Assembly: GCF_003182195.1 (NCBI RefSeq)
Contig: NZ_QGTM01000005.1
Coordinates: forward strand, 1 to 64,000
Reading direction: 5' to 3'
DNA length: 64,000 nt
Origin: Halomonas sp. A11-A
GTDB taxonomy: Bacteria > Pseudomonadota > Gammaproteobacteria > Pseudomonadales > Halomonadaceae
Shown here: positions 46,055 through 53,938 of the stretch, one piece after another
Layout: each line of letters opens with the position of its first letter
Numbering within the stretch: position 1 is the first letter of the stretch
Notes under the pieces: model-generated
Seen by the model: the letters and a program-made list of their open reading frames with translations, nothing else
What the model was told of the DNA's origin: nothing
The model's database searches: none
Program-made: the position numbers and the translations under genes

Positions 46055-46085
46055 CGGGGCAGCCACTTGGCTGCCCCGCTTGTTT
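46055..46085 (+). terminator. intra-operon hairpin between teaA and teaB
   Basis: CGGGGCAGCC and GGCTGCCCCG form a 10-bp stem with a short loop, followed by CTTGTTTCC. The weak T tract suggests partial termination, common after binding-protein genes, so that teaA transcript exceeds teaBC. Confidence 0.6.
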
Positions 46086-46223
46086 CCTCCCCATCCGCTT
46101 CTCCGTTTCGGCTCGCCGGCCAATCAGCGTTGGCGGACCGCATGGTCGTCGCCACGGCCCTTGCCATACCCTGAGGGGCAGGCGGCGAGCAACGCCCAGG
46201 GAAGACCACAGGAGCATGGGCAC

Positions 46224-46802
46224 ATGACCGAAGAAGAATCCGAAAAGAACTATCGCTCGACCCTGCCCGGGCCGCTGGGGCCCATCGACACCTGGATCAG
46301 CCGGATCGAGGCGGTGATCCTGGCCATGGGGGTGATCCTCATGGCCATCAACACCATCGCCAACGTGCTGAGCCGCTTCCTCCTCGGCGAGAGCCTGCAC
46401 TTCTCCGAGGAGATCAACCGCATCCTGATCGTGATGATCACCTTCGCCGGCATCGGCTATGCGGCCCGCCACGGGCGCCATATCCGCATGTCGGCCATCT
46501 ATGACGCCGTGCCCACCGGCGGGCGACGCTGGATGATGATCGTCATCAGCCTGTTCACCGCCCTGGTGATGTTCGTGCTCTGCTACTACTCGATCGGCTA
46601 CATCTCCACCCTCTACGGCCGCGGTCGCGTGCTCCCCTCGCTGAGCATCCCGGTGTGGATGATGTACGTCTGGGTGCCGATCGGCTTCGCCATCACCGGC
46701 ATCCAGTACCTGCTCACCGCCATCAAGAACCTGACCTCCCGCGACGTCTACCTCTCGACCCATGTGGTGGACGGCTACAAGGACACGGAAACGGAAGTCT
46801 GA
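46224..46802 (+). CDS. teaB: ectoine TRAP transporter small permease
   Basis: A 192-residue inner-membrane protein with four helices. The start ([18 protein letters not shown]), [19 protein letters not shown] and [17 protein letters not shown] resemble H. elongata TeaB. ATG 46224 has AGGAG nine bases upstream; the open frame before it is not homologous. It lies between teaA and teaC in the expected order. Confidence 0.92.
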
Positions 46803-51888: not shown

Positions 51889-52803
51889 ATGACAGGCGTG
51901 GCAAACGCGCTGGGGCCGCTGTTCCTGCTGATTCTACTGGGCGCCGCCCTGGGCCGGCTGCGCCAGCCGGGCGGCGACTTCTGGCCCCAGCTGGAGCGGC
52001 TGATCTACTTCCTACTGTTCCCCGCCATGCTGGTATCGACCCTGGCCACCGCCGACGTCAGCCAGGTGCCGGTGGCGCGCGTGGCCCTGACCCTGCTGGG
52101 CGCCATGGGTCTCTTCGGCGCCCTGTTGTGGAGGCTGCGCGGCTGGCTGGGCCTCGACCCGCCGGCCTTCACCTCAGCCTTCCAGGGGGCGCTGCGCTTC
52201 AACACCTACGTGGGGGTGGCGGGGGCCGCCGCCCTGCACGGCACGCCGGGCGCCACCGTGGCCGCCGTGGCCGTGGCGCTGATGGTGCCGGTGGTCAACG
52301 TGATGTGCGTGGCGAGCTTCATTGCTGCCGGGACCCTCGGCGCCGGTAGCCTCGCCAGGAGCCTGGCGGCACTGGCCCGCAACCCGCTGATCCTCGGCTG
52401 TCTGATCGGCATCGGCCTGAACGTGAGCGGCATCGGGCTGCCGGGGTGGAGCGCAGACACGGTGGAGCTGCTCGGCCGCGCCGCCCTGCCGCTGGGCCTG
52501 GTGGCGGTAGGGGTGGCGCTGCGCCCCGAGGCGCTGCTACGCCTCGATCGCGGCGTCTGGGTCACCAACGCCATCAAGCTGGGGCTGATGCCCGCCCTGG
52601 TGCTGCTGCTGGCCCTGGCGCTGGGGCTCGACCCAGTGAGCCGAGACGTGGCGCTGCTGTTCGCCGCCCTGCCCACCGCTACCTCCGCCTATATCTTGGC
52701 GCGCCAGCTGGGCGGCGACGCCGAGATGATGGCGGCGCTGATCACCGCCCAGACCCTGCTGGCCATGGCCACCCTGCCCCTCTGGCTGCGCCTGGCGGGG
52801 TGA
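51889..52803 (+). CDS. AEC-family transporter
   Basis: A 304-residue inner-membrane protein with about ten helices in two inverted halves (LLFPAMLVSTLA early; LPLGLVAVGVAL near the middle; ALPTATSAYILARQLG near the end). It belongs to the auxin efflux carrier/malonate permease family, and the substrate is unknown. ATG 51889 is six bases after AAGGAG; ATG 51883 abuts that site. Confidence 0.88.
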   Translation: MTGVANALGPLFLLILLGAALGRLRQPGGDFWPQLERLIYFLLFPAMLVSTLATADVSQVPVARVALTLLGAMGLFGALLWRLRGWLGLDPPAFTSAFQGALRFNTYVGVAGAAALHGTPGATVAAVAVALMVPVVNVMCVASFIAAGTLGAGSLARSLAALARNPLILGCLIGIGLNVSGIGLPGWSADTVELLGRAALPLGLVAVGVALRPEALLRLDRGVWVTNAIKLGLMPALVLLLALALGLDPVSRDVALLFAALPTATSAYILARQLGGDAEMMAALITAQTLLAMATLPLWLRLAG

Positions 52804-52842
52804 GGCCGAACCGGCAATAAATAAAAACCGTTCGCATTACTA

Positions 52843-52871
52843 TTGACGCCGCAAATGAGAATGATTACGAT
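52843..52871 (+). promoter_or_regulatory. promoter overlapped by a Fur box
   Basis: TTGACG (52843-52848), a 17-base spacer and TACGAT (52866-52871) make a sigma-70 promoter. TGAGAAT-G-ATTACGA (52856-52870) matches the 7-1-7 Fur pattern TGATAAT-n-ATTATCA at 11 of 14 positions and covers the spacer and -10. Iron-bound Fur would therefore block transcription of the downstream RNA. Confidence 0.75.
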
Positions 52872-52877
52872 ATCTCC

Positions 52878-52994
52878 AGTGGCGTTGATGAGCCGCCACT
52901 GCCAGGGCAGGCCCCGCCAGTCGCCTGCCGTGGTTTCTCCCTCCTCATTGCTAGTCACGGTCTTGCCGCCGCCCCATCGAGGGCGGCTTTTTTT
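52878..52994 (+). ncRNA. putative Fur-repressed small RNA (RyhB/PrrF-like)
   Basis: Starting about seven bases after the -10 box, this stretch has no reading frame of note but has clear RNA structure. It has a 5' hairpin (AGTGGCG/CGCCACT, 52878-52900), a second hairpin (GGCAGG/CCTGCC, 52906-52929), then an unpaired pyrimidine-rich stretch TCCCTCCTCATTGCT (52938-52952). A strong terminator follows (GCCGCCC/GGGCGGC with CATCGA loop and seven T, 52968-52994). Predicted length is about 117 bases. The layout and Fur control are those of iron-sparing sRNAs, and the open CUCCUCAUU stretch could pair with Shine-Dalgarno regions. Identity with PrrF is not proven. Confidence 0.7.
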
Positions 52995-53130
52995 GGCCTG
53001 GCGAGTCCCTCCTCATTGCTGCTCCTTACCACCCCAGGGTCTTGCCGCCGCCCCATCGAGGGCGGCTTTTTTTGGTCTGAAGGGTCCCTCCTCATTGCTG
53101 CTCCTTACCGCCCCAAGGTCTTGCCGCCGC
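52938..53130 (+). repeat. three tandem sRNA-seed modules
   Basis: The 15-base TCCCTCCTCATTGCT is repeated exactly at 52938, 53006 and 53085, each followed by GGTCTTGCCGCCGCCC. Copies 2 and 3 also share an intervening GCTCCTTACC(A/G)CCCCA. Copies 1 and 2 end in identical terminators. In copy 3 the terminator is lost and the sequence runs into the trmB terminator. Copies 2 and 3 have no promoter of their own. Confidence 0.9.
53047..53073 (+). terminator. second copy of the sRNA terminator
   Basis: GCCGCCC, loop CATCGA and GGGCGGC followed by seven T, identical to the first terminator. It would stop read-through transcripts from the first unit. Confidence 0.85.
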
Positions 53131-53140
53131 CCTCAACCTC

Positions 53141-53171
53141 AAAAAAGAAGCCCCCGCAGGCGCGGGGGCTT
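53141..53171 (-). terminator. rho-independent terminator of trmB
   Basis: On the minus strand AAGCCCCCGC and GCGGGGGCTT form a 10-bp stem, followed by CTTTTTT. It lies 24 bases past the trmB stop and faces the sRNA modules. Confidence 0.9.
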
Positions 53172-53194
53172 CGAGGAGCGAGGGAGTCGCGTGA

Positions 53195-53938
53195 TCAGTC
53201 GACGCGGCGGTAGATCAGGTCCCAGACGCCGTGACCGAGGCGCTCGCCGCGGGCCTCGAACTTGGTGAGCGGGCGGAACTCCGGCCGCGGCACGTAGGGG
53301 GCGGTCTGGGGCTCGGCGGTGTTGGCATAGCCCGGGGCGGCGTCCATCACCTCGGCCATCCACTCGGCGTAGGCCTCCCAGTCGGTGGCCATATGGAAGG
53401 TGCCACCGACCTTGAGGCGGCTGCGTACCAGCTCGACGAAGGCGGGCTGCACGATGCGCCGCTTGTGGTGCTTCTTCTTCGGCCAGGGATCGGGGAAGAA
53501 GAGCTGCAGGGTGTCGAGGCTAGCCTCGGGCAGGCACTCCTCGAGCACCCGCAGGGCGTCCTCCTGGTAGACCCGCAGGTTGGTCAGGCCGCGCTTGTCG
53601 GCCTCGTCGAGCAGCTTGCCCACACCCGGGGCATGCACCTCGATGCCGATGAAGTCGGTGTCGGGGTGGGTCTCGGCCTGCTCGATCAGCGAGGCCCCCA
53701 TGCCGAAGCCGATCTCCACCACCCGGGGGGCGCAGCGGCCGAACAGGGCATCCAGGTCCTGGCGGCCATCGGCCAGGGCCAGGCCCAGCCGCGGCCAGAC
53801 CTCCTCGAGGCCGCGGGTCTGGGCCTGGGTCATGCGCCCGGCACGCAGCACATAGCTCTTGATGCCGCGGCGGTGCAGCGGGGCGTCCGGGCCTTCCGGT
53901 CCGGTGGTGGCGGTATCGTCGCGGGACTGGTCACTCAT
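53195..53938 (-). CDS. trmB: tRNA (guanine-N7-)-methyltransferase
   Basis: The 247-residue SAM-dependent enzyme forms m7G46 in tRNAs. The AdoMet motif is [11 protein letters not shown] (about 74-84), [10 protein letters not shown] follows, and the catalytic-region [22 protein letters not shown] is unmistakable. The first 25 residues are a variable tail. It is the last gene of the leftward thiS-thiG-trmB operon. Confidence 0.96.

Follow-up and report, generated by a model that had tools for sequence, protein, structure and literature searches.

What becomes of a small RNA (sRNA) gene when its seed and terminator are repeated downstream without a promoter of their own? This question is raised by a locus of Halomonas sp. 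A11-A (NZ_QGTM01000005.1, assembly GCF_003182195.1), which was analysed within a window of 64,000 nucleotides (positions 1 to 64,000 of the contig). A first-pass annotation of this DNA had described a Fur-controlled sRNA followed by tandem copies of its seed and terminator, and had proposed that read-through of the first terminator yields a dosage ladder of RNAs with two or three identical seeds. The repeats could also be a modified extension of the sRNA, a source of independent short RNAs or the debris of a duplication, and these readings are weighed below against the anatomy of the locus, its relatives and its predicted targets.

Anatomy of the locus

The locus is flanked on one side by a Mem_trans transporter gene on the + strand and on the other by a Methyltransf_4 methyltransferase gene on the - strand; it consists of a primary sRNA gene followed by two partial copies, hereafter called satellite units (Table 1). 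The 15-mer TCCCTCCTCATTGCT occurs in exact copies at 52938, 53006 and 53085, spaced by 68 and 79 nt, and a 79-nt unit is repeated with an identity of 92%. The thrice-repeated seed, the terminator found twice and the periods of 68 and 79 bases were all recovered as first annotated, as was a Fur-box-like sequence on the spacer and -10 element of the promoter. The single-promoter architecture was borne out as well, the promoter listed in Table 1 being the only hit within 52700-53300 (shuffled sequences: mean 0.0, sd 0.2). The 5' end of the primary sRNA (52878) was deduced from the position of this promoter. The terminator of the second satellite unit is reduced to the 5' half of the stem, without a U-run, so that a three-seed RNA, as the annotation had envisaged, lacks an intrinsic end in this genome.

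Table 1. Features of the sRNA locus, in window coordinates
Feature	Position	Strand	Basis
Sigma-70-type promoter, TTGACG-17-TACGAT	52843..52871	+	Promoter scan; -35 and Fur-box region strongly conserved in 86 primaries
Fur-box-like 15-mer, 3 mismatches	52856..52870	+	Over spacer and most of -10; register equals Rfam PrrF model start
Primary sRNA gene, PrrF-like, ~117 nt	52878..52994	+	Rfam PrrF match 52843-52995; family-wide conservation
5' hairpin 1, loop TTGATGAG at 52885-52892	52878..52900	+	Both-sided changes in 4/9 pairs; mean z -2.25 in 86 primaries
5' hairpin 2	52901..52933	+	Fold -20.0 kcal/mol; mean z -1.13 in 85 primaries; absent from RNAalifold consensus
Predicted pairing core GGTTTCTCCCTCCTCATTGCTAGTCACGG	52932..52960	+	Largely invariant in 53 aligned primaries; predicted sdhC/sodB pairing
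Primary sRNA terminator (intrinsic)	52968..52994	+	Terminator scan
Satellite unit 1: linker, seed 53006-53020, spacer GCTCCTTACCACCC, CAGGGTCTTGCC, terminator 53047-53073	52995..53073	+	Repeat and terminator scans
Satellite unit 2: linker, seed 53085-53099, spacer, truncated terminator	53074..53132	+	Repeat scan
Terminator-like hairpin serving opposite strand (downstream methyltransferase gene)	53141..53172	-	No U-run on + strand

Fur-like sites with three mismatches were seen three times in the window, against 0.07 expected. The other two 15-mers (46426-46440 and 46534-46548) both lie within a 240-aa ORF (46080-46802). The genome encodes one Hfq and two Fur-family genes. Coding of a repeat peptide was rejected, since the unit spacings among arrays (for example 68/79, 74-76 and 81-84) are not constant multiples of three, and so was a dispersed repeat, the sole other exact CCTCCTCATTGCT in the genome being located inside an opposite-strand ORF of 312 aa.

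Kinship with PrrF and predicted targets

The core that the first-pass annotation had likened to PrrF was matched by the corresponding covariance model. Under permissive settings (52700-53250), Rfam PrrF (RF00444) was by far the best hit, covering model positions 1-150 of 150 (E 4.1e-5, 39 bits) with the -35, Fur box, core and terminator in register, and RyhB, the other model suggested for comparison, returned no row up to E 10. No Rfam family reached its gathering score in the window, the PrrF cut-off being 90 bits. Among 15 other loci of the family Halomonadaceae given to Rfam, 12 matched PrrF at E 0.01 (best 66 bits, E 2.6e-9) and three did not at this threshold; the score stayed under the Rfam cut-off in the window and in all 15 further loci. 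A core nearer to that of PrrF, TCTCCTCATCAAGCTAGTCACGG or almost so, is present in four loci from four other genera (L241-L244), whose scores range from 51 to 66 bits (lowest E 2.6e-9). From these matches we conclude that the gene is a distant PrrF homologue, the likely counterpart of PrrF in Halomonadaceae, although not a member by Rfam's rule.

The primary sRNA was found in 86 of the 90 genomes of the genus; it was not found in G062, G063, G066 and G072, G066 being a nearly complete genome. With a covariance model built from 53 of the 86 primary sequences, the gene was retrieved from 185 of the 201 family genomes sampled and from 21 of 24 genera. Across the order it was retrieved in 11 of 194 sampled genomes, 7 in its own family and 4 as weak hits elsewhere, the filters of the family and order searches being stricter, with loss of weak matches. 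Complete tandem genes occur at 8 of the 86 genus loci, and the second copy carries its own TTGAC and Fur-like sequence in all five loci where its start was seen. A second sRNA copy, located elsewhere in three genomes (L092, L093 and L094), has TTGATGAA as its loop, matches the Fur box poorly (7-8 of 14) and may be under different control.

Comparison of the 86 primaries established strong conservation of the -35 element, the AATGAGAATGATTA region, hairpin 1 with its loop TTGATGAG (exact in 79/86), GCCAG, GGTTTCTCC, TCATTGCTAGTCACGGTC and the terminator (53 aligned). The Fur-box match amounts to 8-11 of 14 positions in 82/86 primaries; shuffled controls reached 7-8 in 298/400 cases and 9 or more in 60/400, and satellite stretches 6-9. 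The site, conserved and in the PrrF register with a moderate match to the consensus, is regarded as a candidate Fur box.

Of the 12 pairs of the RNAalifold consensus, 6 show exchanges of both partners that leave the pair intact in some sequences. The minimum-energy fold of the lone sequence breaks hairpin 1, yet 4 of its 9 consensus pairs change on both sides in relatives. In this genome, the 5' loop TTGATGAG is predicted to pair with the primary seed (highest pair probability 0.82). CTCATTGCT is predicted to be unpaired with a mean probability of 0.36 in the primary RNA, compared with 0.93 and 0.78 in the two satellite seeds of the read-through RNAs; over the 86 primaries, the primary seed averages 0.43. 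The seed stretch, annotated as open, thus appears open in the satellites and not simply open in the primary, so that a read-through RNA might offer a different and more open pairing. Covariation speaks neither for nor against the loop-seed pairing, since none of the positions involved, in the loop or in the paired part of the seed, varies among the 53 sequences aligned. The loop is also exactly complementary to CTCATCAA, the form that the seed takes in L241-L244, four loci that are themselves without the loop.

A candidate target site is at the start of sdhC, which reads CCGTGAATAGCAA in 29 of 30 fetched loci and CCGTGAAAAGCAA in the thirtieth; in this genome it is CCGTGAATAGTAA. CCGTGAATAGCAA, in which GTG is the start codon, is complementary to TTGCTAGTCACGG at 12 of 13 positions. 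Searched genome-wide, the core complement CCGTGANNAGCAA gave 71 matches in 16 genomes, against 12 for the reversed control; assigned by eye, they comprise the sRNA itself (16 matches, 15 genomes), the sdhC start (16 matches, 16/16 genomes), the sodB leader (5 matches, in 5 of the 16 genomes) and 34 other places. For sodB of this genome, pairing is predicted between the leader sequence GGAGAAACC and GGTTTCTCC, and the duplex was reached by 1/200 shuffles (z -3.43). When only gapless helices are considered, sodB is reached by 66/500 shuffles and sdhC by 49/500, the latter value being 15-28 of 500 in nine relatives. Across loci, the duplex energy of sdhC was not beyond that of shuffles (mean z -0.26, 0/29 at 10 or fewer of 200; L180 left out, its genome having no sRNA match), and that of SOD was better (mean z -1.79, 13/29, one of the 13 being another SOD type, L166; L161 left out, its start not having been found).

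A broad duplex scan of whole sod and sdh loci gave hits mostly away from start sites. Perfect trans targets of the full core were discarded as candidates, since a 17-mer search with up to three mismatches in the own genome gave 3 non-self hits for 2 in the control, none of the three being assigned to a known target gene. A second SOD gene (L230, G000:C3:199100-200200), unlike the sodB-type gene in L165, is preceded by the Fur-box-like sequence AATGATTCTTATTGG.

Satellite units across the genus

Satellites were found in 14 of the 86 genus genomes, as 37 units with 1-5 per locus: two in this genome, two in the same-species relative G004 and 1 to 5 in the others. Hence the expectation that relatives would share the array held for part of the genus and not in general. 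The 37 units were retained from a looser search allowing three edits, after extra hits in downstream genes and elsewhere had been dropped by eye; a stricter pattern, limited to the counts of the loose search, recovered the same 37. An exact scan of named contigs, which may leave out records very near the window, returned five records, from Halomonas campaniensis and four Billgrantia species. As five one-contig genomes carry arrays (G004, G067, G073, G083 and G084), an assembly artefact is unlikely.

The satellites are half-units of the primary gene. They retain the central seed (TCATTGCTGCT exact in 34/37 units), but AGTCACGG is replaced by ~19 nt, the upstream GGTTTCTCC is absent, and the motif CTCATTGCTGCTnnTTACnnnnnCAGGGTCTTGCC, with a few variants, stands in place of CTCATTGCTAGTCACGGTCTTGCC. 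Between genomes, satellite identity is 0.986 for the seed, 0.93 for CAGGGTCTTGC, 0.62 for the spacer and 0.39 for the linker, the first two values being inflated and the conservation of the seed partly ascertained by the motif-based retrieval of the units, although its looser version tolerated three edits. A U-run of at least four follows 23/37 units and 4/14 last units; the remaining 10 arrays end in a unit without one, and in G007 none of the four units has it.

The lack of promoter hits in satellites is also general: none was obtained in the satellite stretch of any of the 14 arrays by the scan which scored the primary promoter in 12/14. Weaker primary terminators in array genomes were considered and rejected, as there is no clear difference from the others (-16.0 vs -17.3 kcal/mol; 7.2 vs 7.5 U). 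Since these terminators are nearly as strong as elsewhere, leakage may be slight. A satellite closing stem (linker CCC with CAGGG) was dropped likewise, lone units being no more structured than shuffles (mean z 0.24); their seed is fully open in the lone folds of 7/37 units.

The predicted pairing with sdhC and sodB uses the flanks AGTCACGG and GGTTTCTCC that satellites miss. For the first satellite, the best helix with these leaders was reached by fewer than 50/500 shuffles in only 2 of 12 tests, G007 being the clear exception to mostly chance-level pairing. No satellite-sdhC leader pairing is claimed: the shuffle counts were 1/500 in G007, 43/500 in G024 (at a different place) and 90-283/500 in the other eight. 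Nor were recurrent trans targets of the satellite extension retained, with single sites only outside arrays, in five of the 14 genomes.

The history of the arrays was traced on a malate synthase tree (728 codons) of 30 of the 90 genomes, including all 14 array genomes. Arrays occur in one deep group, in G013, in G026 and in the group to which this genome belongs; between the array genomes stand relatives that have no array or a degraded one, and some nodes are weak. G047, for example, which has no array, falls among G000 and G004 on weakly supported nodes (0.67-0.68). Sister genomes differ by five units versus a remnant (G067/G008) or four versus a remnant (G084/G089), and degenerate remnants persist in four more genomes. 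The spacer motif common to the arrays suggests one origin with repeated loss; transfer is also possible. Terminator loops of primary and satellites look homogenised in this genome and in G004.

A second type of array was found in genus g3. In G415 (L232), one promoter is followed by four ~135 nt units repeating the core, the last diverged; in G398 (L233), by three ~183 nt units repeating the core. The G415 units contain a weak 9-of-12 promoter-like match and the G398 units none, and the best Fur-like match in these units is 8 of 14, compared with 11 at the primary. Promoterless arrays seem to have originated on two or more occasions within the family.

Proposed working, rivals and known systems

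Collectively, these data are best read as a PrrF-type, Fur-controlled sRNA whose satellites are probably read-through extensions with less specific or shifted pairing. Under low iron, Fur would leave the promoter and a ~117-nt Hfq-type sRNA would be made, whose core GGUUUCUCC...CUCAUUGCUAGUCACGG would pair with the start regions of iron-protein mRNAs (sodB, sdhC). Satellites would be reached only through a leaky first terminator, giving a rarer ~196 nt RNA with a second seed, and rare longer RNAs would continue antisense to the downstream methyltransferase gene. The sequences themselves show the anatomy, the homology with PrrF, the conservation, the lack of promoter hits in the satellites and the variation in copy number; from these we infer Fur control, Hfq dependence, the targets, read-through and any function of the satellites. 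The satellites would supply a pairing site of lower or shifted specificity and not a further equal dose, this modified product being favoured over an equal-dose ladder because satellites lose the sdhC/sodB flanks. A fuller version, in which a Fur promoter drives a PrrF-type sRNA, the conserved loop TTGATGAG holds the primary seed, terminator read-through adds 1-5 open seeds with changed flanks in an array of variable copy number, and promoterless arrays arose at least twice in the family, is put forward tentatively, its probability being clearly below even.

The dosage ladder first proposed, in which each read-through transcript, with its two or three equivalent seeds, would titrate a larger amount of the same targets, has in its favour the 15-mer identical in all three units and the core retained by the promoterless units of G415 and G398. 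It seems distinctly improbable: in this genus, modules lacking AGTCACGG and GGTTTCTCC are not equal doses, the satellite helix stood out in just the two tests mentioned and most arrays end without a U-run. Lone satellite units, no more structured than shuffles and often followed by a U-run, could instead be released from a long RNA by RNase E as independent short sRNAs with their own targets, for which CcsR1-4 of Rhodobacter sphaeroides offers a precedent in the available part of the source (PMC10253847); with the extended satellite sequence found outside arrays at single sites only, this is rather unlikely.

In the strong rival reading, the satellites are neutral debris without function: the 3' half of the gene was partially duplicated in tandem, and the copies then expanded and shrank through recombination. 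The range from five or four units to a remnant between sisters, the missing or degraded arrays of close relatives such as G047, the 10/14 last units without a U-run, the four further remnants and the homogenised-looking loops all fit this account. It has less to say of a seed far better conserved than linker and spacer, conversion tracts confined to ~9 nt being unlikely, or of a different promoterless array in another genus, and we give it a serious but smaller than even chance.

If the satellites are transcribed as read-through extensions, terminator leakage would set the amount and kind of RNA made from one promoter. As the number of repeats varies between related species, they may be one means by which an iron-response RNA is naturally extended or retuned, and the variation from 0 to 5 satellites between close species can be used for probing repeated seeds and leaky terminators in sRNAs. 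The PrrF family is also extended to Halomonadaceae, where the Rfam cut-off had missed it in the window and 15 further loci. In the open-licence literature, as far as titles and the starts of abstracts go, no report of a native PrrF or of such an array in Halomonadaceae was found; mentions of PrrF in two Halomonas papers concern the PrrF1-based synthetic sRNA tools of Halomonas biotechnology, as far as the accessible parts of these sources indicate (PMC12164125, PMC13101641). Because such tools are in use, a native relative matters for their design.

Among known systems, read-through between two terminators gives rise to rrA, rrB and rrF in E. coli rRNA operons, according to the accessible portion of the source (PMC8144298), but there the transcript at the head is rRNA rather than a related sRNA. 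As here, one promoter precedes several homologous sRNA units in the cuckoo RNAs of Alphaproteobacteria, of which CcsR1-4 are cotranscribed and processed by RNase E, in the sections available (PMC10253847). However, these are cotranscribed with a DUF1127 gene and have the terminator at the 3' end, whereas no DUF1127 gene adjoins the present locus and terminators separate its units.

The closest likeness is to PrrF1 and PrrF2 of Pseudomonas, with which the primary sRNA shares the position of the putative Fur-box promoter, the core UCUCC..CUCAU..CUA.UCACGG, an intrinsic terminator and a full-length model match. Unlike these two complete genes, one promoter is followed here by promoterless 3' units, and the score is below the gathering cut-off. 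Tandem copies and PrrH are covered by a review of sibling sRNAs, as its available part indicates (PMC4211561). PrrH of P. aeruginosa, which starts at prrF1 and passes the prrF1 terminator in the text available (PMC2851614), is a precedent for transcription that runs past a first terminator into another copy. That second copy, however, has its own start and Fur site in P. aeruginosa, and PrrH includes a 95-nt intergenic part, in contrast to the satellites described here, which are half-units with no promoter hit in any of the 14 arrays.
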